Positions 1,928 to 20,196 of a DNA stretch of 20,287 bases are shown here, piece after piece (the first letter of the stretch is position 1; the number at the start of each line of letters is the position of its first letter). The notes beneath the pieces were generated by a model. It had not been told where the DNA came from, did not search any database, and saw nothing but the letters and a program-made list of their open reading frames with translations. Source of the DNA: a virus; the IMG/VR virus record IMGVR_UViG_3300011115_000860, positions 1 to 20,287 of that record, one strand, 5' to 3'. The position numbers were made by a program, and so were the translations under genes.

Positions 1928-1936
1928 TGAGTCTCC

Positions 1937-2248: not shown

Positions 2249-2276
2249 TCTTATCTCCATTAGGAAGAGGAGAGAA

Positions 2277-2294: not shown

Positions 2295-2330
2295 ATTAAC
2301 TCCTGTTGCGTTTGAGAACGATTACTAGGA

Positions 2331-3254: not shown

Positions 3255-3263
3255 TGTATAAAT

Positions 3264-3281
3264 CCTTTAAATTAGTTATTG
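3264..3281 (-). repeat. Gene-junction direct repeat, copy 1
   Basis: CCTTTAAATTAGTTATTG here matches CCTTTTAAATTAGTTATTG at 3734-3752 apart from one inserted T. Both copies lie in the short gaps before minus-strand start codons and include the AAAGGA ribosome-binding core, so they give neighbouring structural genes the same translation-initiation leader. Confidence 0.75.
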
Positions 3282-3282
3282 A

Positions 3283-3726
3283 TTAAAAAACGTAAGTTGA
3301 ATTGATATAACTCAAGGGAGTTTGGAATCCAACGATTGAAATACCCATCGTTCCTGCAGCAGTGCCAGCATCCAAAAGTTTGACTTGGATAAGATCACCT
3401 GCAGTTGAATAGTGATTCAATGCCGTTCCTACTCCAGTTCCAGCAGCAGCATCAATAGCGGTTGCGGTTTGGAGATCGGTTCCTGAAGATAATTCAACAG
3501 TAATAGTTTTTGAGGCGGTTCCTGCTGTTAATACAACCGTGGTCATACCAACGATGTAAAAACCTGCGGGAATGGTAATAATGGCGGCAGTAGCATTTTG
3601 TGCTCCTGCGGCTCCCGTACCCGTGAAATCGGCAAAGTCAATTTCTTTTGAAAAAACAGTAAGTTCTGTACTAGTTTTTTGAAAGAAACCGTCAATGCCT
3701 GTGCTTAAATTATAAGTTGCGGTCAT
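3283..3726 (-). CDS. Putative head decoration protein (147 aa)
   Basis: This small protein is rich in Ala, Thr, Gly and Val (starts MTATYNLSTGIDGFFQKTST). It has alternating beta-like segments (AAIITIPAGFYIVGMTTVV, KTITVELSSG) and no charged catalytic cluster. It lies between the scaffold and capsid genes with a good RBS (AAAGGA, six bases before ATG). Capsid decoration or stabilisation proteins often sit here and are beta-rich, so that is the inferred role. No family was recognised directly. It could also be a minor head protein or a fibre-like trimer. Confidence 0.75.
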   Translation of the reverse strand: MTATYNLSTGIDGFFQKTSTELTVFSKEIDFADFTGTGAAGAQNATAAIITIPAGFYIVGMTTVVLTAGTASKTITVELSSGTDLQTATAIDAAAGTGVGTALNHYSTAGDLIQVKLLDAGTAAGTMGISIVGFQTPLSYINSTYVF

Positions 3727-3733
3727 TTTATTT

Positions 3734-3752
3734 CCTTTTAAATTAGTTATTG
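3734..3752 (-). repeat. Gene-junction direct repeat, copy 2
   Basis: This is the partner of the repeat at 3264-3281. On the minus strand it spans the last codon and TAA stop of the scaffold-like gene, then the TAATTTAAAAGG leader of the 147-aa gene. Confidence 0.75.
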
Positions 3753-4787: not shown

Positions 4788-4805
4788 AAAGTCTCCTTTG
4801 ACGGC

Positions 4806-5084
4806 CTAATTGGCTTGGTCGTATAATTTGGGCTCACGGTCACGGAATTGTGGCTTGGTGGCCTCATCAAATAACTTAATAGCATCGTCCAACTCTTTGA
4901 CTTCTCGCAGGGATTCTATGCACCCACGAATTCTCATTACTTCCTCAAAGTTAGTGACTCTCTCAAGAGAATCTCGCTTTTCAGAAATGAGTTGATCAAG
5001 CAAATCTTGTAACTTCTTCCAATACGGAGAATTCACAAGAGGCTTGATGTCCTCAAAGAGTTTTTCTTTGCTGTTTAATTGCAT
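4806..5084 (-). CDS. Small unknown protein between portal and scaffold (92 aa)
   Basis: The protein starts MQLNSKEKLFEDIKPLVNSP and is almost wholly helical and charged, with a central segment resembling a helical hairpin. I chose the ATG at 5084. A TTG at 5099 would add five residues, and neither has a strong Shine-Dalgarno sequence (only GGA about ten bases before the ATG). The gene lies 33 nt after the portal stop and ends 18 nt before the scaffold start, so it belongs to the head operon. Small proteins here can be head-assembly chaperones or scaffold cofactors, but no function is recognised. Confidence 0.75.
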   Translation of the reverse strand: MQLNSKEKLFEDIKPLVNSPYWKKLQDLLDQLISEKRDSLERVTNFEEVMRIRGCIESLREVKELDDAIKLFDEATKPQFRDREPKLYDQAN

Positions 5085-5117
5085 ATCTTTATAATCCAAA
5101 TTGTATCATATCAATAT

Positions 5118-7430
5118 TTACATTGGCTGAGGAGGAGTTTGGTTACCCATCATATCCATTAATTGTTCTGGGCTAATTTGTCCAGAAGCAACCGCTTGTT
5201 GCAACTCAGGGGGTAAGGCTTGTAGAATATCTGTCGATAAACCACTTTGTCCTTGGGGTTGTTGCGGGGCTGTTTGCGGATATCCAGCAGATCGCTCATA
5301 ATCTCTTGGGGAAGGTTGCATTTGTGTTCCAAGTTCAGGAGGCAACTGAGAAACCACATCGTGAGCCGCTGCAAGCGTTTGTGCTTTCATTGTGTCTAAA
5401 GCAATCTTGAGGGAAGGGGTCATTGCGTCTTGAGATAGGGCAACTTGTTCGTAAATGGCTGCAAACAAAGGACTATCAGGTTCTGTCTTTTGAAGCATCT
5501 CAAGTAGGGCATCAGGTCGAGGCATCTCAGCCCTTCTCTTCGGCACGTTCTCAATATCTGCTTGTTGGGCTGACTGTTGCATCATCTGTTTCTTAATCAC
5601 TTCAGCCTGAGCATCGGAGTTCACCATATCGGTTTCGTTGAATCCCCTTGTTCTGATCCATTCTTTCAAAACGTTAATCTTATTAATGTACGGCTTGAAG
5701 TCAGGATCTTGCATTAGGGCAACCAACTCTTGCATATTTTGTCCACGGGCTTCATTACCAATGAGCCTTTGAACGCCACCTGCATCAATATTAAAATCAC
5801 CCTTAACTAACATATTAGACGAGTACTGCATATTCCAATCGTACATACGTCTAATCATAGGTTTAGTAACGTAGTTATCAATATTAAAAATCACGCCCTT
5901 AATGTAATTACTAGCAGCATTAAACAACATACTCATACCACTAGAAGTTCGGTTGTGTTGTCCCGTGGCCGTTCCAGCAAACCCCGAAGTCATATCAGGC
6001 ATTGATGTTACTTCTTGAATAAACATCTTAAAGTTATCTTGTAAGAGTTTGAGTTCTTGCAAAATACTAGGAACAGGAACAAACGTAACAGGCGGAGTCG
6101 TAATACCCTCAAGCGTCTTAAGGGGCCAAACACCCCAAGGCTTAATACCTTCAAACTTAAATCCATTAATCATTCGGCTCGTGTCATAAATAACTTGAGG
6201 CCCTGCGGCAATACCCATATTATCGACCATTGCTCTCGCAGCCGCATTAACGATGTCCTGTGGGTCACGCATCTTTTCGGGAACACCACGACCCCAAATA
6301 TTGTAAAGAACTTTCTCATAGGGGCAAACCATATAGGGGATATACGGTTGTTCTAAAGAACTAATCGCAATCTTAATACAATAATTCCCCACTGTCCAAA
6401 TGCAAGACATATACTGAACGTTTTTATCAAAGCCTTCGGGCATTTCAACGCCCGCCTTGTTTAACTCTTCTCCCGATAAATAACCCCAATATTCAAGGGC
6501 CACATATCGATCTCCCTGTACCAACGGAGTTTGACGCTGGTTAAGTGAATAGACACGGCTCTCCCATACTTCGGCAGTCCAGTTTCCTTTAGGGTAAGCA
6601 TCGAGCACCTTTTCAATTTCTTCAGGTTGAAATCCATCAACTTTGTTTAAATCAATAAGTTGTGACTTGTTAAGTACCCTGCGGTGAACCGCCCACATAC
6701 AATCTTTAATATCAAAGGCAGAGGGGTCTGGATAAAACTCAAATGGAGAAACCGTTTCAAATTCTGGTTGAGGATCTTCATTAGAAGAAACTAATTTAAA
6801 TACTTTTTTAGTTTCCCTTTTGATACCAATCATACCCTTGATCTTAGTTGCTATTGTGGGTGATTCTTCCTCATCGACCATAACCCATTTTGTTTTTTGT
6901 CTCTGACCAGAAAAAGGGCCCTTGACAACCATCGTTCCCAAAATAACTAAATCAAGAACGCCTGAAGAAAACTTTTCCAACCAATGGTTTTGCTTAAGTT
7001 GGTCAGCAATTTTTACACGCATATTATCGCAAGCAATATTAGAAGCAAGAATTCTGTTTTGCAAATCTTCGGGTATGTTGGCTTTTTCTGCTTCAGCCAC
7101 ACTTTTAAATCCTAGCGATACCAAATCAGGATCAGGCGTGGGCTTGATGTCCCAAGGGTAATCATCACCACCCGCCATCGTGGCCATAATCTGTGCATAG
7201 GCCGCCATTGATTTCATTTGTGTGAAGTTCAGGAATAAACCTGATTTATTAACCTCATCATCGGATTGATAATCAATACCGTCAAACATCATCTTTGACG
7301 ATAGCCACTTTTCCTGTTGTAAGAAGCGTAAGTTCTTGCACCAAGTAAACTTATCTTGGACAACCTTAGCGATACCTGTGGTCATTGAATAGGGTTGACC
7401 CTGCTCAATATTACCAAATTCCATTACCAT
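5118..7430 (-). CDS. Portal protein (770 aa)
   Basis: A large protein follows directly after the large terminase. Near the start is 'SGLFLNFTQMKSMAAYAQIM', then a beta-rich wing region with 'FETVSPFEFYPDPSAFDIKD', the stretch 'PYEKVLYNIWGRGVPEKMRD', and the block 'DPQDIVNAAARAMVDNMGIA'. Its length and segment order fit long podovirus-type portals, whose dodecamer forms the DNA entry vertex and binds the terminase. The last 80 residues are rich in Pro and Gln (TAPQQPQGQSGLS, TPPQPM) and probably disordered, a common feature of long portals. The start is the first ATG, with GGAG seven bases upstream; a second ATG lies two codons on. The gene begins 10 nt after the terminase stop. Confidence 0.88.
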   Translation of the reverse strand: MVMEFGNIEQGQPYSMTTGIAKVVQDKFTWCKNLRFLQQEKWLSSKMMFDGIDYQSDDEVNKSGLFLNFTQMKSMAAYAQIMATMAGGDDYPWDIKPTPDPDLVSLGFKSVAEAEKANIPEDLQNRILASNIACDNMRVKIADQLKQNHWLEKFSSGVLDLVILGTMVVKGPFSGQRQKTKWVMVDEEESPTIATKIKGMIGIKRETKKVFKLVSSNEDPQPEFETVSPFEFYPDPSAFDIKDCMWAVHRRVLNKSQLIDLNKVDGFQPEEIEKVLDAYPKGNWTAEVWESRVYSLNQRQTPLVQGDRYVALEYWGYLSGEELNKAGVEMPEGFDKNVQYMSCIWTVGNYCIKIAISSLEQPYIPYMVCPYEKVLYNIWGRGVPEKMRDPQDIVNAAARAMVDNMGIAAGPQVIYDTSRMINGFKFEGIKPWGVWPLKTLEGITTPPVTFVPVPSILQELKLLQDNFKMFIQEVTSMPDMTSGFAGTATGQHNRTSSGMSMLFNAASNYIKGVIFNIDNYVTKPMIRRMYDWNMQYSSNMLVKGDFNIDAGGVQRLIGNEARGQNMQELVALMQDPDFKPYINKINVLKEWIRTRGFNETDMVNSDAQAEVIKKQMMQQSAQQADIENVPKRRAEMPRPDALLEMLQKTEPDSPLFAAIYEQVALSQDAMTPSLKIALDTMKAQTLAAAHDVVSQLPPELGTQMQPSPRDYERSAGYPQTAPQQPQGQSGLSTDILQALPPELQQAVASGQISPEQLMDMMGNQTPPQPM

Positions 7431-7440
7431 TTATAAACTC

Positions 7441-8823
7441 CTAGTAACCAATCTTTTTGTTGTGGGGCTTCCATTGATATTTTACCTCATTGCTTTTATA
7501 CAAGTCGGGAGTTGATACCGCTTTGTCCCAAGCCGTAACGCAATATCTAAACGCATCCATTAAATCATCATCTTTCTTTAAAATGTCTCCGTTTTCCTTG
7601 AATCTATATAGCCTCATCTCTTTTAGGGTCTCCACGCAAGACTCAAAAATAAACAACTGTTCAGAGGCTATTTTTGCTCTTATAAATGATATACCGTAAT
7701 TGACCCTATTGTCTGCAACAATGAGTCGGTCTTCTTCAAAAATATCTTGAAACATTTTGTAGGGAGAATCACCACTTGCAATAGAGCGCTGACGAGAATT
7801 CGGATCAATAGCAAATCGGCAAGGCCAATCCCTTAGTTTGTAGGCGTGATAAATAGACGATTCTCCTGATTGTTTGTATTCTTGATGAATATAACCAACG
7901 CCTGACTCATCATCAATCGATAGCCTAACCGCACAGGTAGGATGGGAGATACCCACATCCAGTCCTGCAATCGTTCTCCATTTCGGACTAATGGAAAAAT
8001 TGGACAACACATATTCGGATTCATCAAATTGATAAACCTTACCCGTACCGATGCTGGGCCTTCCAAACTTACGGCTTTCTATTTCGTGAGGACTGAGGCC
8101 CGCAATTTGTAATTTCTTATCTTCTTCGGACAAATGAGTAACATCATCCCAAGTCAGGAAGTGAACTCCGTACATATCATCGTAATTGCTCATTATTTCG
8201 TCACAGAGAGGCGTTACGCCCTTCAGCGGGGTGAAGGTAAGGAAAACATATCCAGAGGCCGCAATCGTCCTCATTTTGGCTTCTTTGTAAATATCTTCGG
8301 GCGGTTCCTCGTCGCACCACACCAAATCAACGGTAGAGCCTTGGAATTTCTCTCGGCCCTGATCGTAAGAGAAGAACTGAATCACACTGGTACCACCTGT
8401 TTTATGTTTAATCCTGCAAATATCAATGGCTCCAGGGATGCCCCCTTTGCGAATGGGGTCACCTAAGATGGCTTGTTTAGGAATTAAGCCTGTTCCCCAG
8501 TCACCTAATTGCCCAAACAGTTTTTCTTGCAGGGTATCTCGCACACGGGTAGATGATTCGCCTGCCACCCATACGGTTACAGGTCGGTCAAACTTGATGC
8601 CCTTATACCAAGACGGGTACTCACCCGTAAGGTGGTAAGCCACAAAAGCCGACCCCACCGTGGTTTTACCCGACTGATTACCCCCAAACAGGGCAACAAT
8701 TTTGTGACCATCATTCATAAAAGAGAGTTGTTTCTCGTAGGGTTTAAAGTTTTTTAACTTATTTTCCCTTTCCCGCCTTAAAAGTTCCTGTTCTAGTTGC
8801 TGTAGTTCGTTTAGGCTGCTCAT
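7441..8823 (-). CDS. terL: Terminase large subunit (460 aa)
   Basis: This is the ATP-driven DNA packaging motor and nuclease. The Walker A motif is GGNQSGKTT (47-55), Walker B is VDLVWCDEEP (165-174) with Asp171 and Glu172, and TFTPL (196-200) matches the coupling motif. The RNase H-like nuclease domain shows AGLDVG (286-291, Asp289), AIDPN (338-342, Asp340) and the acidic DDDLMDAFRY (418-427), giving a plausible metal-binding triad. Its length is usual for the family. It works with the portal gene just downstream (10-nt gap). The start has AAGGA, eight bases before ATG. On its upstream side lies an oppositely oriented mini-gene, so transcription must pass through that element or start anew. 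Confidence 0.95.
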   Translation of the reverse strand: MSSLNELQQLEQELLRRERENKLKNFKPYEKQLSFMNDGHKIVALFGGNQSGKTTVGSAFVAYHLTGEYPSWYKGIKFDRPVTVWVAGESSTRVRDTLQEKLFGQLGDWGTGLIPKQAILGDPIRKGGIPGAIDICRIKHKTGGTSVIQFFSYDQGREKFQGSTVDLVWCDEEPPEDIYKEAKMRTIAASGYVFLTFTPLKGVTPLCDEIMSNYDDMYGVHFLTWDDVTHLSEEDKKLQIAGLSPHEIESRKFGRPSIGTGKVYQFDESEYVLSNFSISPKWRTIAGLDVGISHPTCAVRLSIDDESGVGYIHQEYKQSGESSIYHAYKLRDWPCRFAIDPNSRQRSIASGDSPYKMFQDIFEEDRLIVADNRVNYGISFIRAKIASEQLFIFESCVETLKEMRLYRFKENGDILKKDDDLMDAFRYCVTAWDKAVSTPDLYKSNEVKYQWKPHNKKIGY

Positions 8824-8840
8824 TATGGGTTCCTTGGGGG

Positions 8841-8849
8841 TGTTATACT
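8841..8849 (+). promoter_or_regulatory. Extended -10 promoter for the 47-aa mini-gene
   Basis: TGTTATACT is an extended -10 element (TGn followed by TATACT). It lies 43 nt before the ATG of the plus-strand mini-gene. No good -35 box is present, which extended -10 promoters can tolerate. A near copy, TGTTACACT, precedes the structured RNA region at 11593-11601. Confidence 0.55.
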
Positions 8850-8891
8850 GATACTAGGTTTGATTTGCACTCATAACCGATGGAGAACAAA

Positions 8892-9035
8892 ATGGCCAAA
8901 AACGTTAATTTCGAATCTGAGATGAAAAAATCAGGTCGAGAAGAATTTGCCCAAGAAAGTGCTAAAACCGAGCAAGGTAAGGGTTCCAAGGGATTTGCAT
9001 ACCCCACAGAGGGATATGTAGCCGTTGTTGAATAA
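8892..9035 (+). CDS. Isolated antisense mini-gene (47 aa), moron-like
   Basis: This short frame was read by hand: MAKNVNFESEMKKSGREEFA at the start and GYVAVVE at the end. It lies on the opposite strand from all its neighbours, between the two terminase genes. GGAG stands six bases before the ATG. An in-frame ATG at 8880 would add four residues but would put the RBS inside the coding region. The gene has its own extended -10 promoter upstream and a strong terminator 25 nt downstream. An independently transcribed small gene within a structural operon matches the definition of a moron, which often changes host physiology. The peptide is charged, soluble and Lys/Glu-rich, with no recognised fold. 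Confidence 0.7.
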   Translation: MAKNVNFESEMKKSGREEFAQESAKTEQGKGSKGFAYPTEGYVAVVE

Positions 9036-9060
9036 CTGAAGTTGCACTGGTTTTGCAAAC

Positions 9061-9084
9061 AAGGGGCTAAACGGCCCCTTTTTT
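9061..9084 (+). terminator. Intrinsic terminator after the mini-gene
   Basis: AAGGGGC (9061-9067) pairs with GCCCCTT (9074-9080) around a 6-nt loop, and a run of T ends at 9084. On the minus strand the same hairpin sits just after the small terminase stop codon with only a weak T run (TTGTTT), so it may also attenuate late transcription before the large terminase gene. Confidence 0.85.
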
Positions 9085-9089
9085 GTTGT

Positions 9090-9788
9090 TTATTCGGTAT
9101 TTTCATCGGTTTCCTCGGTCTTTTCTTCTAAAGGTTGCACTTCGACCTCGTGTGCGGGGGGTGTCCAGCCTGTATCGATGAGTTCTTCTTTGACTTTGGT
9201 AAAGAGTTCGTCCCTTCTTCGCCTAAGTTCATCATCCGAAACGGATTTGATGTCTTCTTCCTGCCTAAAAACCTGTTTATCTTGGAATTTTTGACTCATT
9301 TGGGCGGCTCGACGAGTTAAAGCGTCGTATCTTAACTTCACTACGGGCACATCTTCTCGTTCTGTGAGGTGAACCACCTCCAAAAGAGCCTTGTCCGACA
9401 TAATGTGGGCTGCGGCTTCCTCGGCTAATCGGTAATCTCGCTCGAATTCAGGATGATTTTTGAACCATTTGTAAATCGTCCCAATACTAGGGGCCCCTAC
9501 TTGTTCACAAAACATCTTAAGTGAGTTACCTTCCGTAATCCAATCAAGCACTTTGTAGATAATATCTTGGCGATTGTAGTGAGCCCCATTGATCGTCCAA
9601 GTATCCGCCTGAGCATCTCGTCTAAGACGATCCATTTGACCCTTAAAAGAGTTAACTTGGCTCAAGGCCGCACCGTGTTTTTTGGTATCTCGATAAGCGA
9701 TTTCTGCATATTGTTTTTTTCTAAGATTACTTAGTTGTTTCGGGGTCAGTTTGTACGGATAATGCCTGCTGATTTGCTTCTTGACCAA
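9090..9788 (-). CDS. terS: Putative terminase small subunit (232 aa, TTG start)
   Basis: Residues 72-111 form a helix-turn-helix unit (DIIYKVLDWITEGNSLKMFC, then SIGTIYKWFKNHPEF), followed by the helix DYRLAEEAAAHIMSDKALLE. This arrangement is characteristic of many phage small terminases, which recognise the packaging site and load the large subunit. The C-terminus is acidic and likely disordered (EEKTEETDENTE). The gene precedes the large terminase in the same direction, though the antisense mini-gene separates them. The best start is TTG at 9788, with GGGAG nine bases upstream. It gives a 62-nt overlap with the preceding gene, and no good ATG lies nearby in frame. Confidence 0.82.
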   Translation of the reverse strand: MVKKQISRHYPYKLTPKQLSNLRKKQYAEIAYRDTKKHGAALSQVNSFKGQMDRLRRDAQADTWTINGAHYNRQDIIYKVLDWITEGNSLKMFCEQVGAPSIGTIYKWFKNHPEFERDYRLAEEAAAHIMSDKALLEVVHLTEREDVPVVKLRYDALTRRAAQMSQKFQDKQVFRQEEDIKSVSDDELRRRRDELFTKVKEELIDTGWTPPAHEVEVQPLEEKTEETDENTE

Positions 9789-10116
9789 TGGACACCACTC
9801 CCATCGAATGAAAATTATTATTGGTAATAGAAAGAGATTTGACTAATTGATCTACGATCTTATCGGTTCCTTCAATTTGAGAAAGGGTTTGTATACTCGT
9901 TGTAATATCTCTTACCACGGAGGCATACGTTCTTACGGCTTCAATCTGCTTAAGTTCATTAAGAGAATTGGCTACCGCTGCCTCTCGCCTTTCCGTCTCA
10001 GAAGTCAGATGATTAAAGTGACCCATCATCTTTTCAAATTGCTGCTCGGACATCTCAACGCCAAAACCTGCTTTGGGTTTTTCTTTCCATATTTCTTGTG
10101 ATTGAGGTTCGCTCAT
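9727..10116 (-). CDS. Coiled-coil-like small phage protein (129 aa)
   Basis: I took the ATG at 10116 (MSEPQSQEIWKEKPKAGFGV), which has AGGAG four bases upstream. The longer frame to 10350 overlaps another gene and has Cys/Arg-rich, non-protein-like sequence. The middle, from about residue 25, is helical and charged (QQFEKMMGHFNHLTSETERR), and the C-terminus is Asn/Gln/Ser-rich. It overlaps the putative small terminase by 62 nt and lies 7 nt after the 87-aa gene. No family is recognised. Position suggests a packaging accessory or internal head protein, but nothing in the sequence proves it. Confidence 0.75.
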   Translation of the reverse strand: MSEPQSQEIWKEKPKAGFGVEMSEQQFEKMMGHFNHLTSETERREAAVANSLNELKQIEAVRTYASVVRDITTSIQTLSQIEGTDKIVDQLVKSLSITNNNFHSMGVVSIGQEANQQALSVQTDPETTK

Positions 10117-10123
10117 AAGTCTC

Positions 10124-10387
10124 CTATGAAATAAATTTTTTAGGGGTAGATTCTGTTTTCTCTTTAATTCTTTGCTCAACTTTCTTTCGGTACTTATCGT
10201 CGCAGTGCAAAAGCAACGTGCGAATACAGACCAGCAAATGCGATTGAACTTTAATAAGTTCAGCGGCTTCTTCAACATCCAATTCAAATTCTTCAGGCAA
10301 TTGGCTTTGAGCGTGTTCTGCATATTCCTCAATGGCATCCAACCCTTCACGGTCGAGTCGTCCCCAGTTTTCGTCTTTGATAATCAT
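10124..10387 (-). CDS. Acidic small protein of unknown function (87 aa)
   Basis: The protein starts MIIKDENWGRLDREGLDAIE and is helical and strongly acidic in its first 45 residues. Residues 46-60 are hydrophobic (QSHLLVCIRTLLLHC) and the tail is basic. Its ATG overlaps the TGA of the upstream HTH gene by 4 nt (ATGA), a sign of translational coupling. No domain is recognised. The hydrophobic stretch is interrupted by Arg and His and is too short for a convincing membrane span. Confidence 0.78.
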   Translation of the reverse strand: MIIKDENWGRLDREGLDAIEEYAEHAQSQLPEEFELDVEEAAELIKVQSHLLVCIRTLLLHCDDKYRKKVEQRIKEKTESTPKKFIS

Positions 10388-10932
10388 ACGGAGTCCTTTT
10401 TAAATCTTCGTCGGGGTTTCTTTCGCTTACCGCTTTCAGCATAGTGGATGACCATCGGGGGCCCAATCTTCTCAAAGAACATTGGATTAACCGCAATGGT
10501 GTCAAAGGGAATATATTTTTCATCACGCCACACAAAGATTTCTACATCTCCACGACTCACCGACTGATGAATGGCTTGCCGTGATACGCCACGAATACGA
10601 CCCAATTCGGCTTGCGTAATAATCCCAATCATTCCATTCGTAAAATCATACTCCGTAATGCGTTTCCAATCACTGGGATGAATCGGATAAAGCCCGTCCA
10701 TTTTTCTAGTCGAAGGTTTAAATTTTTGTCGTAGAGATTCTTTAGCACCCGACTCTATACTTTTTTCAATCAGGCTGTGCAAGATCGGTTCAACCGAAGC
10801 GTGAGCCAACTCAAAAGAATTTTCCATTGAGTGAAATAAAAACTCACCATCGCTATCGTGAATAACAATTCGGTGTTTGCCTTGAATCACTTCGTGTTTG
10901 TAACTTAGTTTAGGTTTGGGACACTGTGACAT
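10384..10932 (-). CDS. Helix-turn-helix DNA-binding protein (182 aa)
   Basis: Residues about 105-132 read ITQAELGRIRGVSRQAIHQS then VSRGDVEIF, a clear helix-turn-helix with the 'x-GVSRQAIHQ-x' recognition helix seen in XRE/MerR/excisionase-type proteins. The wing-like strands after it end at IPFDTIAVN. The C-terminal tail is very basic (GKRKKPRRRFKK, 168-179) and could add nonspecific DNA contacts. The N-terminal 70 residues are a mixed alpha-beta region I cannot assign. It lies second in the late operon, after the HslV-like gene. It may regulate late transcription, or it may aid packaging or DNA recognition. AGGAG stands four bases before the ATG. Confidence 0.82.
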   Translation of the reverse strand: MSQCPKPKLSYKHEVIQGKHRIVIHDSDGEFLFHSMENSFELAHASVEPILHSLIEKSIESGAKESLRQKFKPSTRKMDGLYPIHPSDWKRITEYDFTNGMIGIITQAELGRIRGVSRQAIHQSVSRGDVEIFVWRDEKYIPFDTIAVNPMFFEKIGPPMVIHYAESGKRKKPRRRFKKDSV

Positions 10933-10944
10933 AACGCTCCTAGA

Positions 10945-11496
10945 TTAAAGTTCGATGATTCCAATTTGAATACGGCCACCACAATTGGGATCATATTTAA
11001 TGGCAGCCTGAATGGCTTTTTTAATGCGTTCTTTAGAGTTCTTAGTAGGTGTGCTATGGGCCGCCCCTAAAGCATAGGGCTCTCCGCTTCCCACGGCACA
11101 AAACTCAAAAGAAGGTATCTCCGTTACCGACATATCACTCGATATGCGGTAAAGATGATTTTGAAAAATAATAAGCATCTCCAAAGAATAAGACTGAGGT
11201 TCTCCCCCTGATTCTTTTTCTTCTTTCCACCCGTCCGCCGCAATCGCTTTTTTTAATATGTCTGCAATCTCAAAACAACTTAAAGCGGACTCGAAATTTT
11301 TAGCGCTTGACATTATCAAATTATCAAGTCTAGAGGATCCTGCAGAGCCTATGTAGATAGGAAACTTAGTGCTCTTGCCCCTTAGTTTTCTCCACTTGGT
11401 GGCCACATCATAGGCGGGGCCGTTGTCAAAGGTTACTCGTGTGTCAGAACCGTAGACGATTCTGTCAATTTCTTTGATGGCTGCAATAATTGTCAT
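10945..11496 (-). CDS. HslV/proteasome-beta-like Ntn hydrolase (183 aa)
   Basis: The protein begins MTIIAAIKEIDRIVYGSDTR. With Met1 removed, Thr1, Asp17 and Lys33 fall exactly at the positions of the HslV catalytic residues (T1, D17, K33). The 'GSAG' turn (50-53), the 'AVGSGEPYALGAA' block (134-146, HslV has IGSGGPYA) and the closing GGRIQIGIIEL also match. Length is near that of HslV (about 175). HslV-type peptidases form stacked rings that degrade proteins unfolded by HslU; no unfoldase gene is in this window. It is the first gene of the late operon, 13 nt before the HTH gene. It could remove scaffold, act as a maturation protease, or modify host proteolysis. The fold is well supported; the role is inferred. 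Confidence 0.85.
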   Translation of the reverse strand: MTIIAAIKEIDRIVYGSDTRVTFDNGPAYDVATKWRKLRGKSTKFPIYIGSAGSSRLDNLIMSSAKNFESALSCFEIADILKKAIAADGWKEEKESGGEPQSYSLEMLIIFQNHLYRISSDMSVTEIPSFEFCAVGSGEPYALGAAHSTPTKNSKERIKKAIQAAIKYDPNCGGRIQIGIIEL

Positions 11497-12085: not shown

Positions 12086-12144
12086 TTCTAGTGTCAATAG
12101 GTGATTTGAAAAACTCCTGTAAAAAAGAGACGGAGGCCTTCATA

Positions 12145-12200
12145 GCCCCCCCGTATGCGTCTGCGTGTCCCCTACCCCCCTCTTATCTTCCTACCCCCCC
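12145..12200. repeat. C-rich tract with repeated CCTACCCCCC
   Basis: Runs of C occur near 12145-12152, 12169-12172, 12175-12180 and 12194-12200, with CCTACCCCCC appearing twice around TCTTATCTT. The minus strand thus carries four or more G runs of at least four, with G-quadruplex potential. It is followed by the AT-rich TATATATTTATCTATTATAT. Confidence 0.7.
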
Positions 12201-12229
12201 TATATATTTATCTATTATATGTTTTGTCC

Positions 12230-12258
12230 TTGACAATGATAAGGTAGGCGTCAGTCTA
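12230..12258 (+). promoter_or_regulatory. Candidate early promoter, copy 1 of a paired motif
   Basis: TTGACA (12230-12235) is followed by 17 nt and AGTCTA. The same frame (TTGACAA, 4 nt, AAGG, 1 nt, AGG, 4 nt, AGTCT) recurs at 13806-13834. It lies about 85-110 nt before the ATG of the 103-aa gene. The -35 is perfect and the -10 is poor, so an activator or phage-altered polymerase may be involved. Confidence 0.55.
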
Positions 12259-12342
12259 ACAATATCGGCAACGGGAAAGCCCGTCAGTCGTGAGCGACCT
12301 TCTCGCTCTACCTTCTATAACCTTTCTAAAGGAGACCATTCT

Positions 12343-12654
12343 ATGGTCGCAAAGAAAACAAGCACCAAGGCTACCAAGCCCAAGACTTTTAGCCAAGCGT
12401 TGGCTAAACAGTTATCATCTCAAGGCATCACCGCTGATGTCCTTGAAACCATCATTAACCTTTACCAAGACAACGGCAAATATTCTGCTCAAGGCTTGGT
12501 TTCAACTCTCCGTTACCTTTCGCAAGGTAATGGAGACTTTGAAGGTTTCCTCCGTGAAACCTCAAAAACCTATGAGACGAAGTTGAATGACTTCGCCTCT
12601 GACTTAGCATCTGATGAAGATGTTAAAGAGGAGTTACTTAACTCGCTGAGTTAG
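12343..12654 (+). CDS. Early-type small basic-acidic protein (103 aa)
   Basis: The start is ATG 12343 with AAAGGAG eight bases upstream. A longer frame to 12091 is rejected because it runs through the C-rich tract. The protein starts MVAKKTSTKATKPKTFSQAL: a Lys/Thr-rich tail of about 16 residues, then a helical body (LAKQLSSQGITADVLETIIN), and an acidic end (DFASDLASDEDVKEELLNSL). A basic tail plus acidic helix suggests a nucleic-acid- or protein-binding small factor. No family is recognised. A strong terminator follows immediately, so it forms a one-gene unit. Confidence 0.85.
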   Translation: MVAKKTSTKATKPKTFSQALAKQLSSQGITADVLETIINLYQDNGKYSAQGLVSTLRYLSQGNGDFEGFLRETSKTYETKLNDFASDLASDEDVKEELLNSLS

Positions 12655-12668
12655 GTAACAAAGAGATC

Positions 12669-12714
12669 GCTAGGAGTCCCTTAGAAGGGGGGGCTCTTAG
12701 CCTTTCTTTTTTTT
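12669..12714 (+). terminator. Strong intrinsic terminator
   Basis: GCTAGGAGTCCC (12669-12680) pairs with the GGGGCTCTTAGC arm ending at 12701 (12 bp with two G-T wobbles), followed by CTTTCTTTTTTTT. It closes the 103-aa gene. Confidence 0.9.
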
Positions 12715-12726
12715 AACAACATTTCA

Positions 12727-12745
12727 GGGCATTAGCCCTAAGGAG
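12727..12745 (+). promoter_or_regulatory. Leader hairpin directly upstream of the RBS
   Basis: GGGC-ATTA-GCCC (12727-12738, extendable by an A-T pair) is followed two bases later by AGGAG (12741-12745). It belongs to a set of similar leaders (15010-15023, 19024-19035, 20175-20186). Confidence 0.6.
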
Positions 12746-12749
12746 CATT

Positions 12750-12998
12750 ATGAGTAAGACGAATAAAAGCGTAATTAAACAAAACCATAAGCCTGTGGGA
12801 CTCGCCAAAGTCCTACACGATAACTATCTTTTACACGGAGATTCTACTAATGTGATTGTCTTCGATGAGGGACTTATCGCTGACATTCTGAAATATATGT
12901 TAGACCATCAAAACTATAACCCTGATGAGTATATTAGTATGTGTAACTTTTACTATCGATACTGTTTGCCTCGCATCGTAAAGCGAGTAAAGCGATAG
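12750..12998 (+). CDS. Small unknown protein (82 aa)
   Basis: AAGGAG lies four bases before the ATG. The protein begins MSKTNKSVIKQNHKPVGLAK and ends with a basic RIVKRVKR tail. The middle is rich in Tyr and Asp (YNPDEYISMCNFYYRYCLPR). No transmembrane segment and no recognised domain are present. The gene lies between two strong hairpins (12669-12714 and 13006-13037), so it is probably expressed as its own unit or by readthrough. It may be a host-takeover peptide, but nothing specific supports that. Confidence 0.82.
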   Translation: MSKTNKSVIKQNHKPVGLAKVLHDNYLLHGDSTNVIVFDEGLIADILKYMLDHQNYNPDEYISMCNFYYRYCLPRIVKRVKR

Positions 12999-13005
12999 GC
13001 AATCC

Positions 13006-13045
13006 GATGATGGGGGAGATCGTCTCCCCCACTCATCTATCTTTT
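13006..13045 (+). terminator. Terminator-like long hairpin
   Basis: GGGGGAGA (13012-13019) pairs perfectly with TCTCCCCC (13023-13030) around a 3-base loop. GATGA and TCATC extend the stem past a small internal loop. TATCTTTT follows, a modest T run. Confidence 0.75.
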
Positions 13046-13068
13046 AACAATCCTACTAAGGAGATACA

Positions 13069-13272
13069 ATGAACGACAATAAGGAAATGATTGATACAAT
13101 TGCGAAAGCCCTAGGCTATCGTTTAGCCCACGAAAATAAGGATGATTCCAAGGCTTACTGCGAGGCAAGAGCCTATTGGGAAACATTCCCGCTTGGTATC
13201 AACAGCCAAGATTTTATTCTATTGGTGGGCTACCATAGAGCCATTAAGGAGATACAATTAAATTGTAAGTAA
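13069..13272 (+). CDS. Small unknown protein (67 aa)
   Basis: AAGGAG stands five bases before the ATG. The protein (MNDNKEMIDTIAKALGYRLA onward) is helical and charged, with aromatic YWETFPLGINSQDF in the second half. No family is recognised. Its last codons include a second copy of the 14-base RBS sequence TAAGGAGATACAAT (13245-13258), identical to its own leader at 13057-13070. An intrinsic terminator follows at 13282-13313. Confidence 0.82.
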   Translation: MNDNKEMIDTIAKALGYRLAHENKDDSKAYCEARAYWETFPLGINSQDFILLVGYHRAIKEIQLNCK

Positions 13273-13281
13273 GTCAAAAGA

Positions 13282-13313
13282 AGCCCTGAGCCTAACCGCT
13301 TGGGGCTTTTTTT
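13282..13313 (+). terminator. Intrinsic terminator
   Basis: AGCCCTGAGC (13282-13291) pairs with GCTTGGGGCT (13298-13307), including G-T wobbles, around a 6-nt loop. Seven T residues follow, ending at 13313. Confidence 0.9.
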
Positions 13314-13340
13314 GTGCCCATTTTTTTATAGCAAGAAGAA

Positions 13341-13364
13341 GGGGCTGTCATCACACACACACAT
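13341..13364 (+). repeat. GGGGCTGTCATCA plus CA-repeat element, copy 1
   Basis: GGGGCTGTCATCA (13341-13353) runs into a CACACA tract. An identical 13-mer followed by a longer CA tract is at 20144-20174. Each copy lies shortly downstream of an intrinsic terminator. Confidence 0.75.
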
Positions 13365-13768
13365 TTAGGGAATCTCAATAGATAACGCTATTAACGCAGG
13401 TTTACGGAAGACCCTATTAAACACGATAATCCGTATAATTACCTATTAAGCAGACACGCATAAGTTCAATCATATCTATACTTAAGGCTAGGTAAGGCTT
13501 TAATGGTGGGGGGTAAATAACCTAGTGTAAACCTAAAATAAATGTCATAAGCCGTAGTAAGGCTATGGAAAAATAGGCTAATCGACATCACATCACATCA
13601 TTATGCAATCTTATGTAACATTATGCATACGAGTAACATATAAGTATATCAGCGTTTACACCTTAACCTTATCCTTAAACTTAGCAGGTAAACATTAACA
13701 CTTATCCATAGGCTTACACTTAACCTTAACCCATAAACGCATTAGGCTAGGTATGGGGTGGAAATCGC

Positions 13769-13912
13769 TTGGAAGTTGCTGAAAACAAAGGACTTAAAAA
13801 TCTTCTTGACAAGCGGAAGGCAGGAGATAGTCTTTTGGGAGTGGCAAACAAACGGCTTGATCGCCACCCCCCATATGGTTATGGGGTAGACGAGATCAGG
13901 CTTATCCCATAA
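13769..13912 (+). CDS. Possible tiny gene with TTG start (47 aa)
   Basis: The frame read by hand starts TTG GAA GTT GCT and gives LEVAENKGLKNLLDKRKAGD, ending GYGVDEIRLIP with TAA at 13910-13912. Composition is protein-like and a weak purine-rich site (GGTGGA) lies six bases before the TTG. Against it: the start is non-ATG, a promoter-like motif (13806-13834) and a perfect hairpin (13869-13886) sit inside the frame, and such a short frame can occur by chance. I rate it as uncertain. Confidence 0.3.
   Translation: MEVAENKGLKNLLDKRKAGDSLLGVANKRLDRHPPYGYGVDEIRLIP
13806..13834 (+). promoter_or_regulatory. Candidate early promoter, copy 2 of a paired motif
   Basis: TTGACA (13806-13811), a 17-nt spacer and AGTCTT. 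It shares the spaced blocks TTGACAA, AAGG, AGG and AGTCT with 12230-12258. It lies about 97-125 nt before the ATG at 13931, a similar distance to the first copy. Confidence 0.55.
13869..13886 (+). promoter_or_regulatory. Leader hairpin
   Basis: CCCCATA (13869-13875) pairs perfectly with TATGGGG (13880-13886) around TGGT. It falls in the expected 5' leader of the 72-aa gene, about 45 nt before its start. No T run follows, so it is not a terminator. Confidence 0.55.
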
Positions 13913-14977: not shown

Positions 14978-15003
14978 GGTGAGATACCCATATAAATCTC
15001 ACC
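14978..15003 (+). promoter_or_regulatory. Hairpin in the leader of the amidoligase gene
   Basis: GGTGAGAT (14978-14985) pairs perfectly with ATCTCACC (14996-15003). Outer ATAGGG (14968-14973) can also pair with CCCTAT (15011-15016), which competes with the RBS-proximal hairpin at 15010-15023. This may be a regulatory switch or simply a processed leader; there is no T run. Confidence 0.55.
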
Positions 15004-15009
15004 ATACTC

Positions 15010-15034
15010 GCCCTATCAAGGGCTAATTAGGAGG
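15010..15034 (+). promoter_or_regulatory. RBS-proximal hairpin and strong RBS of the amidoligase gene
   Basis: GCCCT-ATCA-AGGGC (15010-15023) lies five bases before AGGAGG (15029-15034), which is seven bases before the ATG at 15042. Confidence 0.6.
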
Positions 15035-15041
15035 CATACCA

Positions 15042-16790
15042 ATGCCAAACACATCAATAGTTTTCCAACGCACCTCGATCATACCCAATGGTGTGACTGA
15101 TGAGCAGATCACTCGTTGGACAGGACAAACCGACCTCGGCTATAGTATAGCCAAAGATATGGTCTTACACGATCTGCGTGAGACTCCCTATATCACAGGC
15201 ATTGAGGCGATAAGCCCTCGCACTCTAGATTTGCTCGTCAATCAATACCTGAGTATGAGTTATGTCTTAAGAAATGCACGAACTGAAAACCTTACGGCAC
15301 GGGGTACGGATAATGTGCGAGAGGAATTAGCCCATATTATTAACACAACCCTTGGTACTATGGAGTACTGCCTTTCTCGCCTCGAACACCAAACCTTCTT
15401 ACATAGCCCCATAGATGGGGAACGCATTACTACTAGGCTTATAAACGAATTGCCTATGATTGATGTGTCAAGGGAAATTTTCCAAATGAACTCAGCACAA
15501 GGGGGTATGCGACCTTATGTGTATGCCTGTGATTACGAATTATTTGCCGATTCGTGTGGGGATTGTTGTTCTGATTTCCCTAGCCATATACCTTCAGTTA
15601 GAGGCACAATCGTTGATAATGTTTACGAGTATCGACAACGAGCACACTCAATACAAGATAGCAACGGCGATCCCGTCATATGTAATGATTGCTTCGAGGA
15701 TCATTGGAATGAGTGTGATGATTGCGGTGAGTATGTCAATATGGATGATCATAGTTGCTCATCATCAGAATCAGTCTACTTCACTTGTAATACATCAGCC
15801 ACTCATAGCGTGGGTGATACGACCTTGCAGTTCGGTCAGCGAACCATAGGCATTGAGTTTGAGACAGGCTCAGGGGCTAGGAATCATAACTTCCAAAAAG
15901 CGTTTACCTCTGCCTTCCCTAAGTGGGGCGTACACGAAGACGGATCATTGGGTGATGATGCACTCGAGTTTGTAACCAACCCATTAGGGGGTCATCATAT
16001 TCAAAATGAAGTGCTTCAGTTCTATAAAATGTGTGGTGACTACGGCGTAGAAACTCAGGACAAAAGTGCGGGTATGCATATCCATATCGGGTGTTCAGAT
16101 ATCTACGAATTGATTGGGGGTCATCAGAATAAGACTTGGACTGAGGGCTCGGCTAATGATCTTGTTGAACGCCACATTATGGCAGGTTCATTGGAGTCTC
16201 AGGGTAGTGATTGCCCCTATGTCAGAGTCGATAGTGATGAGGTTAAGTTGATCAATCACTCTGATGTACCTGAGGAAACAATGGTAATGATGGGCAACGC
16301 CTTTGTCAATATCGCTAGGTGCTTTATCAACAAGACTCGTAGCCTTAATACCTATTGCCGTTCACCCTTTGGCTTCAGGGATAAGGGTAGCAAGAGTGAG
16401 GTGCTTAAGAAAACCAATGATTACACTTATCCTGCTATCGCTATGCGTAACCTCAAGACAATGGAGTTCCGCTTGTATCCTTCAACGACAAGTGTGAACT
16501 ATGCTCTGGCTCGTATCGAACTCAGTCAGAAACTCGTTGAGTATATGGCTATCAATATGGTCAAGTATCAAGACGCTTATGCACAGGGCATTACGGAAAC
16601 CTCTATGCCTGATGTGTTCAAGTTGTTGCGATTATCGAGTGTAATCAATCACGCCAATGAAAGTTATCCGACCAATATGGTGGACAAGTTAGGCGATATG
16701 ATTGGCTTATCGACTGAGGCTCGTACGCACCTTCAATTCCTGTATACTCGTAGTCATTTGAAATCAGCCTCATCAACCTTTGAACTTTAA
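15042..16790 (+). CDS. Zinc-ribbon amidoligase (COOH-NH2 ligase), 582 aa
   Basis: Residues about 260-480 carry the hallmarks of the amidoligase family (glutamine-synthetase/ATP-grasp-related COOH-NH2 ligases): GIEFE (270-274), HEDGSL (298-303), EFVTNPL (309-315), GMHIHIG (344-350) and MEFRLYPST (474-482). These should bind ATP and metal and join a carboxylate to an amine. Before it come a helical domain (1-150) and a Cys-rich region: C172/C175/C176, then CNDC (214-217) and ECDDCGE (224-230), a likely zinc ribbon. The C-terminal 100 residues are helical. It heads an operon with a glutamine amidotransferase 27 nt downstream, a pairing known for this ligase family. Substrate unknown: it may be a protein carboxyl group, a small peptide or a nucleotide derivative. 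The amidoligase identity is strong, the role inferred. Confidence 0.9.
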   Translation: MPNTSIVFQRTSIIPNGVTDEQITRWTGQTDLGYSIAKDMVLHDLRETPYITGIEAISPRTLDLLVNQYLSMSYVLRNARTENLTARGTDNVREELAHIINTTLGTMEYCLSRLEHQTFLHSPIDGERITTRLINELPMIDVSREIFQMNSAQGGMRPYVYACDYELFADSCGDCCSDFPSHIPSVRGTIVDNVYEYRQRAHSIQDSNGDPVICNDCFEDHWNECDDCGEYVNMDDHSCSSSESVYFTCNTSATHSVGDTTLQFGQRTIGIEFETGSGARNHNFQKAFTSAFPKWGVHEDGSLGDDALEFVTNPLGGHHIQNEVLQFYKMCGDYGVETQDKSAGMHIHIGCSDIYELIGGHQNKTWTEGSANDLVERHIMAGSLESQGSDCPYVRVDSDEVKLINHSDVPEETMVMMGNAFVNIARCFINKTRSLNTYCRSPFGFRDKGSKSEVLKKTNDYTYPAIAMRNLKTMEFRLYPSTTSVNYALARIELSQKLVEYMAINMVKYQDAYAQGITETSMPDVFKLLRLSSVINHANESYPTNMVDKLGDMIGLSTEARTHLQFLYTRSHLKSASSTFEL

Positions 16791-16817
16791 CCAACCAACC
16801 CTATAAGGAGAATCATT

Positions 16818-17807
16818 ATGTGTGGTATCTGGGCAATCATTCCTAAGCACAACAAGTGTGCTAATCAATTACGACAACTAGCGTATCTACTCGCTGAGTT
16901 TAACGATACTCGTGGGGGTCAGTCCTTCGGCATATGGCATAGAAAGGATACGCTACGCCGAGTCGGTGAGTTTTGGGATCGTGTTAATCGTAAGCCTGTC
17001 CGTATGCTCATTGGGAATTGGTCTCCCAATACGGATAATTGGATTGCAGGTCATAGCCGTTGGGCTACTCACGGAAAGGTAACCGAGGAAAACCAACACC
17101 CCTTTACTTATGGCGAGTATACCCTTGCTCATAATGGGGTCGTTGATGTGGAAGGTTATAGCGACAAGGATCACGCTGTGGATTCAGGTCGTATCGTTAA
17201 GTCAATCGTAGATCACGGCATTGTTGATGGACTCAGCAAAGTCTCAGGATCGTGTGGTCTAATCGTGTCTAAGGGCAACGAACTCTTTGCCTATCGGGGT
17301 AATCAGGAACTCTCCCTTGCTCAAGGCTCTTGGGGTACAGCGATCTCTAGTGATCGTGAACATCTAGAGAAAGCCTTATGTCGTGTGGGTTTAACACCCA
17401 AGACGATTGGTTCAATGAAGCAAGATGAGTTTACCAATCTCATCACAGGCGATATAACACCTGCCAAGTTGGGTGTTTCAGCCCACCCCGCAAAGTCTTG
17501 GAAAGATTACGGCTATGATAACTATGGGTATAGCACCCTTGGTGCGAGTGTCTATTCACCTCATACCCCTGTAACGAATAGTGGGTGGGCTACTCAGACG
17601 AAAGCCCCCCTCTACCCTACGACTGAGGCAGACGGATATGTGGATCGTATGGAAAACCCTGAACTTTATGATCGGTGCGATGATTGTGGTGAGACGTTTT
17701 ACCATACCCAATTAGGGTGGTATCAAGATTCTGATAACTTAATGTGTGATCGTTGTTCCTATAGTTGGTATGGAGATCACGCAAAGGCAATCAAGGTGCT
17801 CGTATAA
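16818..17807 (+). CDS. Class II glutamine amidotransferase with C-terminal zinc ribbon (329 aa)
   Basis: The protein starts MCGIWAI, so Met removal exposes the Cys2 nucleophile. It continues with the GATase II signatures RGGQSFGIW (32-40), GHSRWATHGKVTEENQHPF (78-96), LAHNGVV (103-109), DSGRIVKSI (122-130) and GSCGLIV (144-150); compare GHTRWATHG and VHNGI in GlmS. It should release ammonia from glutamine. There is no fused synthase domain: residues 215-280 are a Tyr/Gly/Ser-rich linker and residues 287-313 form a zinc ribbon (CDDCGE...CDRC). The CDDCGE block is shared with the amidoligase upstream. It lies within that operon, with AAGGAG eight bases before ATG. Likely it feeds ammonia or an amide to the ligase. 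Confidence 0.92.
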   Translation: MCGIWAIIPKHNKCANQLRQLAYLLAEFNDTRGGQSFGIWHRKDTLRRVGEFWDRVNRKPVRMLIGNWSPNTDNWIAGHSRWATHGKVTEENQHPFTYGEYTLAHNGVVDVEGYSDKDHAVDSGRIVKSIVDHGIVDGLSKVSGSCGLIVSKGNELFAYRGNQELSLAQGSWGTAISSDREHLEKALCRVGLTPKTIGSMKQDEFTNLITGDITPAKLGVSAHPAKSWKDYGYDNYGYSTLGASVYSPHTPVTNSGWATQTKAPLYPTTEADGYVDRMENPELYDRCDDCGETFYHTQLGWYQDSDNLMCDRCSYSWYGDHAKAIKVLV

Positions 17808-17840
17808 TCAACCTCAACCCATACCCAACTAGGAGAAACA

Positions 17841-18833
17841 ATGAAAATTATTAACGATTGGATTAACAAGTATGGTCAAGACAATTACTTCCATCTCTTT
17901 GATGCAGGTGGTTCAAACGACTTCAATGTGTGTGAACTTTCCTTTACCACTAGCCGTGAGTTTCACGAAGGTCAGACGGCTTGGTTAAGGGATACCTTTT
18001 GGAATAATCTCATTGAACGCTATAAGGGTTTATGTAGAGATAATCTTGATGGTAGACTCAGCGACCCACTCTATGTATCTATGGAAAAACTAATGGATAC
18101 AATGGGTGTGTATGTACCAAGCGAGTTCTTTGTCGATAGCATATCCGATAGAGCCAAAGTCTTGAGAGACATAGACGAGGACAAGATGTGTTTGCTTGAT
18201 GTGTTATGTGCCTTGTTCCCCTTCTTGCCAAGAATCTATGATAAGAACGCCTATGTCCAAAGGTTATACAATACGGCACTAGGATATGTGTATGAGGCGA
18301 GAGGGGACATCAAGAAAATCTATGAGGATCACGGAGATTACTTCTTAAGTCCCGATTCTATATTAGAGTTTGAGTATAGCCCCAAGGGTGATCGCTATCG
18401 TATCAAGTTCTTATCACCCATATGGTTACATCATCTATACAAGAAACTAGAGTGTATGTACAACCTCAATATCCAAGTATCAACAGGTAGGTTTAGGGAG
18501 AAGTATCCTAGTGCCGATATGAGGACGGAGTATGGTCAGCCTATTCATCTCTATCGCTTGGGCAGAAACATTGCTAAGGACTATACCTACCTCTATAACC
18601 TTGAGTATAAAGATGGAACGATTGAGGCAACCTCAGATAGTGACTTCTTTCCACCCTATGTATTCACGCCGTTCGAGGACGAACTTAATATCGCCAAGAT
18701 TAACTTCGCAGGTAATACGCTTAGGTATTGCGATACTAGACTTGCTACATTGGCTAAGTCTATGGATAAAGCCAATAACTTCCTTGCTGATTACAAGAGC
18801 ATAGGTCTTAACGAGTATTTGGAAGGTGCGTGA
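17841..18833 (+). CDS. Unknown protein of the amidoligase operon (330 aa)
   Basis: The gene lies 33 nt after the amidotransferase, with AGGAG six bases before the ATG (MKIINDWINKYGQDNYFHLF). It has a helical, aromatic-rich body with no Walker, GATase or ligase motif. There are five scattered Cys and no CxxC pair, and no signal peptide or membrane span. Blocks that may help a profile search are 'LDVLCALFPFLPRIYDKNAY' near 118-137 and 'FLSPIWLHHLYKKLECMYNL' near 190-209. Its stop overlaps the ATG of the next small gene (TGATG), so it is translated with the operon. It may be the modified substrate, a partner or a regulator. Function unknown. Confidence 0.88.
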   Translation: MKIINDWINKYGQDNYFHLFDAGGSNDFNVCELSFTTSREFHEGQTAWLRDTFWNNLIERYKGLCRDNLDGRLSDPLYVSMEKLMDTMGVYVPSEFFVDSISDRAKVLRDIDEDKMCLLDVLCALFPFLPRIYDKNAYVQRLYNTALGYVYEARGDIKKIYEDHGDYFLSPDSILEFEYSPKGDRYRIKFLSPIWLHHLYKKLECMYNLNIQVSTGRFREKYPSADMRTEYGQPIHLYRLGRNIAKDYTYLYNLEYKDGTIEATSDSDFFPPYVFTPFEDELNIAKINFAGNTLRYCDTRLATLAKSMDKANNFLADYKSIGLNEYLEGA

Positions 18834-18982
18834 TGACTAGATTAAGAATCAATAAAAAAATCAGATCAATTATTTTATTACTTTCATATGCCATCGGGAT
18901 TGTGATTGCCACGCATAGTTTTTTATCTGGTATGATTGTAATAGTTTTACTAGATGGTCTCGTTAGACATAAGTTGGATTAA
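18833..18982 (+). CDS. Small membrane protein (49 aa)
   Basis: This frame was read by hand: ATG 18833 overlaps the previous TGA by one base. After a basic N-terminus (MTRLRINKKIR) there is a hydrophobic stretch (SIILLLSYAIGIVIA, about 12-26), then a second (FLSGMIVIVLLDGLV, about 30-44), and a short polar tail. It resembles a two-span inner membrane peptide with a positive-inside N-terminus. In phages such peptides include holin-like or superinfection-exclusion proteins, but nothing here fixes the role. It lacks a strong RBS of its own and probably depends on coupling. Confidence 0.7.
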   Translation: MTRLRINKKIRSIILLLSYAIGIVIATHSFLSGMIVIVLLDGLVRHKLD

Positions 18983-18989
18983 GGGTATA

Positions 18990-19015
18990 GATGATCAACC
19001 CTTTTAATGATCATC
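18990..19015 (+). promoter_or_regulatory. Inverted repeat GATGATCA/TGATCATC
   Basis: An 8-bp perfect inverted repeat (18990-18997 and 19008-19015) with a 10-nt spacer lies in the gap before the second MKVS-type gene. It has no T tail. It may be a transcript hairpin or an operator for a dimeric protein. Confidence 0.5.
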
Positions 19016-19023
19016 ACAACAAA

Positions 19024-19042
19024 GCCCATTAGGGCAAAGGAG
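19024..19042 (+). promoter_or_regulatory. RBS-proximal hairpin
   Basis: GCCC-ATTA-GGGC (19024-19035) is directly followed by AAAGGAG (19036-19042), four bases before the ATG at 19047. Confidence 0.6.
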
Positions 19043-20038: not shown

Positions 20039-20196
20039 AAATGTTATCACTAACCCAAACAATGCTAAGTCCAATGTTTACTTACACTTACAAGCAATAC
20101 TTCAAGGGGGGTTTATCCCCCCCTTTTTTTGTGTTATTATTATGGGGCTGTCATCAGACAACACACACACACACAACGGCACAAGCCGAAAGGAGT
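20035..20196 (+). CDS. Short frame read through a terminator (53 aa)
   Basis: ATG 20035 overlaps the previous TGA by 4 nt and has AAGGAG eight bases upstream, so translation probably begins here. It starts MKMLSLTQTMLSPMFTYTYK. The frame has no stop before or within the terminator at 20106-20130 and ends only at TAA 20194-20196, inside the leader of the next gene. Transcripts that end at the terminator would thus be nonstop mRNAs. It may be a leader peptide, a decayed gene or an accident of coupling. The part after the terminator is low-complexity (QTTHTHTTA). Confidence 0.45.
20106..20130 (+). terminator. Strong intrinsic terminator
   Basis: GGGGGG (20106-20111), the loop TTTAT, and a run of seven C (20117-20123) form the stem, followed by seven T residues. 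Confidence 0.9.
20144..20174 (+). repeat. GGGGCTGTCATCA plus CA-repeat element, copy 2
   Basis: The 13-mer is identical to 13341-13353. A CA tract follows (20160-20173). This copy lies in the 5' leader of the last gene, after a terminator; TTATTATTAT just upstream could act as a -10 region. Confidence 0.75.
20175..20193 (+). promoter_or_regulatory. RBS-proximal hairpin
   Basis: CGGC-ACAA-GCCG (20175-20186) is directly followed by AAAGGAG (20187-20193), four bases before the ATG at 20198. Confidence 0.6.

Follow-up and report, generated by a model that had tools for sequence, protein, structure and literature searches.

Introduction

In the phage sequence analysed here, a gene for an amidoligase and a gene for a free-standing class-II glutamine amidotransferase (GATase II) lie side by side, and are closely followed by genes for a 330-aa protein and for a short membrane peptide. 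Which reaction might these two enzymes carry out, on what target, and do the two downstream genes belong to the same pathway? The sequence, hereafter called the window, is a virus record of 20,287 bases (IMGVR_UViG_3300011115_000860) that corresponds to an incomplete tailed-phage genome, with a contig end at 20287.

In the literature searched, no demonstrated reaction or substrate was found for phage amidoligase modules and, to our knowledge, there is no biochemistry for any phage member of the family. Co-occurrence of the amidoligase and GATase families has been described for OM43, LUZ24-like and other phages (PMC10580990, PMC3890496, PMC6209634). The roles put forward for them, as given in PMC10580990 (citing Iyer et al. 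2009 and Mageeney et al. 2012), are cell-wall modification against superinfection or metabolite synthesis.

Genomic context and organisation of the operon

The window consists of two divergent gene blocks. The leftward block (575-11496) encodes the major tail, capsid, portal and terminase proteins as well as an HslV-like peptidase. The rightward block (about 12.7-20.1 kb) mostly contains small genes and includes the amidoligase/GATase operon, four ORFs located at 15042-18982 on the + strand. As originally predicted, these ORFs are tightly spaced: genes 1 and 2 are separated by 27 nt, genes 2 and 3 by 33 nt, and genes 3 and 4 overlap by ATGA. Clear Shine-Dalgarno sites precede genes 1 to 3. The block is closed by an intrinsic-terminator-like site (20104-20125, + strand), an 8-pair stem with a T-run behind it; terminator-like sites number 15, compared with 5.6 expected from shuffles. 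No Rfam match was found. The rightward block is probably an early block. A role of the operon in virion assembly is mildly disfavoured, since the operon lies in this probably early block, opposite to the capsid and terminase genes.

A single close relative of the window was found, the contig IMGVR_UViG_3300012666_000919 (L005), in which all four genes recur in identical order, an arrangement that goes beyond chance. The amidoligases of the two contigs are 72% identical, the GATases 87% and the 330-aa proteins 81%, with dN/dS values of 0.41, 0.33 and 0.33, respectively. Judged by these ratios, the three large genes of the operon are under purifying selection. Constraint is stronger on the catalytic part of the amidoligase than on its N-terminal part (0.25 vs 0.49), and reaches 0.20 in residues 1-240 of the GATase.

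Several other features of the two contigs deserve mention. The region between the two blocks (about 12142-13900) displays sparse coding, fast divergence and several terminator-like sites; it is mostly unalignable to L005, whereas its flanks are 95% and 83-90% identical. The HslV/proteasome-type peptidase gene (10945-11496, - strand; phrog_1040, E 6e-21) adjoins the terminase genes. Residues T2, D18 and K34 of its product match the T1/D17/K33 triad counted after Met, and its dN/dS relative to L005 (0.04) is the strictest among all compared genes. A 346-aa protein encoded between the portal and capsid genes (3747-4787, - strand) has no PHROG match and would be a scaffold by position.

Directly before the Shine-Dalgarno site of the amidoligase gene lies a leader (14978-15023, + strand) with two hairpins, 14978-15003 and 15010-15023. 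A second leader of similar layout is found at 18990-19035, and counterparts of both occur in L005, at about 6155-6200 and 10170-10230. In the common layout, a hairpin whose sequence varies is followed by a GCCC-N4/6-GGGC hairpin and then by a Shine-Dalgarno site. From the window to L005, the first stems change from GGTGAGAT/ATCTCACC to GGTAGCC/GGCTACC and from GATGATCA/TGATCATC to GCGACT/AGTCGC. In these two sequences, the stems are thus rewritten on both sides with pairing kept, and the flanks before gene 15042 are near-identical. The hairpins are possibly mRNA-processing or stabilising elements.

The amidoligase

The first gene of the operon (15042-16790, + strand) encodes a 582-aa protein that combines a cysteine-rich N-terminal region with a C-terminal COOH-NH2 ligase domain of the Amidoligase_2 type. 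The catalytic domain (residues 256-582; 15807-16787, + strand) displays the series G-x-E-x-E, DGSL, E, P, HxH, E, R, Y and ExR. All four motifs on which the original prediction had based its assignment are present, GIEFE at 270-274, HEDGSL at 298-303, EFVTNPL at 309-315 and GMHIHIG at 344-350; a further conserved motif, which it had not listed, is MEFR at 474-477.

The similarity to known families is low. Pfam Amidoligase_2 (PF12224) scores 11.9 bits, under the cut-off of 22. PHROG matches were obtained to phrog_16683 (E 4.6e-7), a family also matched by the amidoligases of the viral contigs L020 and L026, and to phrog_7469, annotated 'amidoligase enzyme' (E 1.4e-3). No relative was retrieved by a single-protein scan for close relatives in viral contigs or by tblastn of the whole protein against the phage collection, and a profile built from the window and L005 amidoligases had no match in five classical phages; relatives were reached only with a mixed alignment (A5). 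By hhalign, the catalytic domains of the window and L005 match a set of 11 phage amidoligases, none of them from the window/L005 lineage, with a probability of 98.9% (E 3.4e-17). GIEFE, DGSL, EFV, P, HIHI and EFR are in register in this alignment. The negative control, a comparison of the amidoligase with ATP-grasp proteins, gave 0.1%. Furthermore, the window protein keeps every invariant residue of the 10-sequence phage amidoligase alignment (A5). Because of this match and of the retention of all invariant residues, the protein is identified from its sequence as a strongly diverged Amidoligase_2/phage COOH-NH2 ligase. The AlphaFold2 model obtained from a two-sequence alignment has a pLDDT of 34.5.

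Several CxxC motifs are found within the first 250 residues. The cysteines of a putative zinc-binding region (15555-15759, + strand), C172/C175, C214/C217, C225/C228 and C239, are all kept in L005, in an N-terminal part that is only about 52% identical, and this region would bind zinc. Cysteine-rich amidoligase N-termini also occur in the phage ctUh1700 and in L026, which has 14 CxxC. The amidoligases of L020, L024 and L025 have an N-terminal extension devoid of CxxC, a stretch of which, judged by eye, resembles a helix-turn-helix (e.g. ALRDSGYTFRQIASECGYADPATARYAW).

The glutamine amidotransferase

The second gene (16818-17807, + strand) encodes a class-II (Ntn) glutamine amidotransferase of 329 aa. 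The protein carries Cys2 (MCGIWA), HSRWATHG at 79-86, HNG at 105-107 and D122. It scores above the Pfam cut-offs for PF13522 (28.4 bits, cut-off 27) and PF13230 (23.6, cut-off 23), matches phrog_4736 (E 4e-20) and shows a short match to the glutaminase domain of GlmS (1xff). Neither Pfam nor NCBIfam detected a synthase domain of the GlmS, PurF or AsnB type. The original description of a GATase with Cys2 and the class-II signatures and devoid of any synthase domain is confirmed.

The GATase domain is followed by about 90 faster-evolving residues that bear a C-terminal C-x2-C / C-x2-C ribbon (17676-17756, + strand; C287, C290, C310 and C313). This ribbon is kept in L005, and similar C-terminal ribbons are found in the GATases of the contigs L021, L026 and L027. 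Neither this ribbon nor the cysteine-rich N-terminal region of the amidoligase had been pointed out in the original prediction.

Full and minimal forms of the module

An alignment search that used the amidoligase only retrieved eight viral contigs beyond L005, all from other lineages. Every one of these distant contigs (8/8) carries in its amidoligase cluster a GATase II gene whose product has an N-terminal MCG. This gene is directly downstream of the amidoligase gene in seven of the eight, at a distance of about 40 nt or less when the MCG start is used; the exception is L023, whose GATase II gene is located on the same strand, about 1.7 kb upstream. Both genes are also found in HP1, BA6, a PaP3-like phage, phiM6, phiEco32, T5S1 and ctUh1700. 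The idea that the amidoligase and the GATase II act jointly on an amide thus receives support at the level of the families, from the hhalign match (98.9%), from the pairing in all eight clusters and from the classical phages. The pair is a long-known phage module, ordinary for phages, of which the first two genes of the operon represent a new, diverged and, within the limits of the contig, pared-down member.

The module occurs in two forms. In the full form, a type-2 ligase (PF14395) and an ATP-grasp protein are also encoded on the contig; this is the case of L021, L022, L023, L026 and L027, and of phiEco32 according to its annotation. Neither a PF14395 ligase nor an ATP-grasp was found in the sequences of the window, L005, ctUh1700, L020, L024 and L025. 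Several of these minimal-form contigs, including the window, are fragments, and ctUh1700 was searched as a whole 43,972-base circular record; the existence of a minimal two-enzyme pair is fairly safe because this record was searched whole. Since neither a PF14395 ligase nor an ATP-grasp was seen in these sequences, the two enzymes can apparently act in the absence of both. For the window itself, the absence of the type-2 ligase and of the ATP-grasp applies within the contig, and an ATP-grasp or a further ligase may lie beyond 20287.

The pair could be part of a larger peptide-ligating pathway such as that of phiEco32, whose remaining genes, for an ATP-grasp ligase and a cyclotransferase, would be located past the end of the contig. 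In such a pathway, the amidoligase would couple a carboxylate to the amino group of a peptide or amino acid, and the GATase domain would act as an amidohydrolase or as an ammonia source. Full modules with a PF14395 ligase, an ATP-grasp and often a gamma-glutamyl cyclotransferase are indeed common in phages. However, the rightward block contains no recognisable gene of this kind as far as the terminator at 20104, and none was found in the whole of ctUh1700 or in the 32.7-kb L025 contig. Furthermore, in a tree of the catalytic domains, the window, on a very long branch, groups weakly (67/96) with the minimal forms and L026 and not with the full-module phages. A larger pathway is the main rival of the reading preferred below, and is rather unlikely.

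Phage amidoligase modules are widespread, and a natural two-enzyme form would be a simpler system for finding their reaction.

The 330-aa protein and the membrane peptide

For the third gene (17841-18833, + strand; 81% identity and dN/dS of 0.33 relative to L005, as above), searches of Pfam, PHROG, NCBIfam and PADLOC gave no noteworthy match. No relative of its product was found in the phage, plasmid or genome-contig collections at the sensitivities used, and L005 is the only viral contig that encodes one, in scans that detect close relatives only. By hhalign, all comparisons with the type-2 ligase, the 200-aa module protein, the ATP-grasp, the amidoligase and a 287-aa protein of L026 remained below 1%. 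The AlphaFold2 model from a two-sequence alignment has a pLDDT of 30.5. On the evidence of its conservation in L005, the gene is real, constrained and lineage-restricted, and it is probably co-transcribed with the pair.

Two other assignments were considered and rejected. A match to the collagen-binding ColH domain (3jqw; E 2.9e-4 with the profile and 0.002-0.009 with single sequences) is judged to be due to chance because it covers a 63-residue stretch with about 20 bits and has no Pfam support. A known defence system was rejected for want of a PADLOC match.

The fourth gene (18833-18982, + strand), which overlaps the third one by its ATGA, encodes a 49-aa hydrophobic peptide with one or two membrane spans predicted from hydropathy. 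Its L005 counterpart, a 48-aa peptide, is unrelated or barely alike (17-21% identity), and keeps the length, the hydrophobicity and the overlap with the preceding gene.

The original prediction had proposed the 330-aa protein as a possible substrate of the pair. In a four-gene unit of this kind, the two enzymes would modify the 330-aa protein and the membrane peptide would anchor the product. The gene order, the close spacing and the start/stop overlap common to the window and L005 are consistent with this scheme, as is the constraint on the 330-aa protein (dN/dS 0.33). However, outside the immediate lineage the 330-aa gene was not seen with the pair, an outcome that the original prediction had itself set as refuting, so that its substrate proposal fails there: no relative was found at any other amidoligase locus or, L005 apart, in the collections searched (phages, plasmids, viral contigs and genomes), and the protein has no profile link to the families of the module. 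The four-gene unit is very improbable. A self-sufficient version, in which a ribbon-guided pair amidates the 330-aa protein, or an envelope target presented by this protein and the membrane peptide, is very doubtful. The two genes are lineage-specific neighbours in the transcription unit of the pair, and their membership in its pathway is unsupported.

Proposed mechanism

The preferred reading, to which a probability of about 0.5 is given, is that the pair catalyses a glutamine-fed, ATP-dependent amidation of a carboxylate. Cys2 of the GATase would hydrolyse glutamine, and the ammonia released would pass to the amidoligase. This COOH-NH2 ligase, predicted to be glutamine-synthetase-like, would activate the carboxylate with ATP and form a carboxamide from it. 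In both proteins, the cysteine ribbons would probably serve to join the two enzymes or dock them on their target. If the two enzymes act alone, one-step amidation would be the simplest reaction, by analogy with MurT/GatD, a system whose folds (Mur-ligase and class-I GATase) are unrelated to those of the phage pair. The likeliest target may be a carboxylate of a host cell-envelope peptide or host protein that would be altered during infection. This is a guess, and an envelope target in particular is put forward tentatively, at odds well short of even.

For the other targets suggested in the original prediction, a phage structural protein or a DNA base precursor, the analysis yielded evidence neither for nor against. 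The pair might instead act on a nucleotide or a DNA base and contribute to hypermodification. Amide chemistry on bases is used by phages, and the location of the operon in a probably early block would suit such a role. However, the window ORFs that were scanned include no recognisable base-modification gene, and the amidoligase family has been linked to cell-wall or peptide-like substrates (PMC10580990, citing Iyer 2009) and is not known to be linked to bases. This alternative is highly improbable.

Comparison with known systems

The phiEco32-type module, also present in PaP3/LUZ24-like phages, Vibrio BA6, Pseudoalteromonas HP1 and Sinorhizobium phiM6, comprises a COOH-NH2 ligase, a GATase II, an ATP-grasp and a GGCT. 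The window shares with it the invariant amidoligase residues and the presence of a GATase II in the cluster. It differs from it by the lack of the type-2 ligase, ATP-grasp and GGCT within the contig and by the cysteine-rich N-terminus and the long insert before the conserved Arg of its amidoligase, and identity is only about 16-25%. The OM43 phage, compared by its published description only, carries a PF12224 amidoligase and a PF13522 GATase together, for which cell-wall modification or metabolite roles have been proposed (PMC10580990).

Outside phages, the bacterial MurT/GatD complex, made of a ligase and a glutamine amidotransferase, amidates lipid II (PMC3266927). The likeness to the reaction proposed here, amidation of a carboxylate by a ligase and a glutamine amidotransferase, is an analogy only.

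Two other viral sequences were compared. The 97-kb IMG/VR contig L026 encodes an amidoligase with 14 CxxC and, after it, a GATase that carries C-x2-C ribbons at its C-terminus; it differs from the window by a PF14395 ligase in its cluster and an ATP-grasp on the contig. Caudoviricetes ctUh1700 (MW202637) lacks the 330-aa gene, has a 43-aa ORF between the two genes of the pair, and its catalytic domains are about 25% identical to those of the window. Like the window, it encodes an amidoligase domain preceded by a long cysteine-rich N-terminus and a separate GATase II (352 aa in ctUh1700), and its pair occupies a similar position, in a rightward block that adjoins a leftward block with the terminase.
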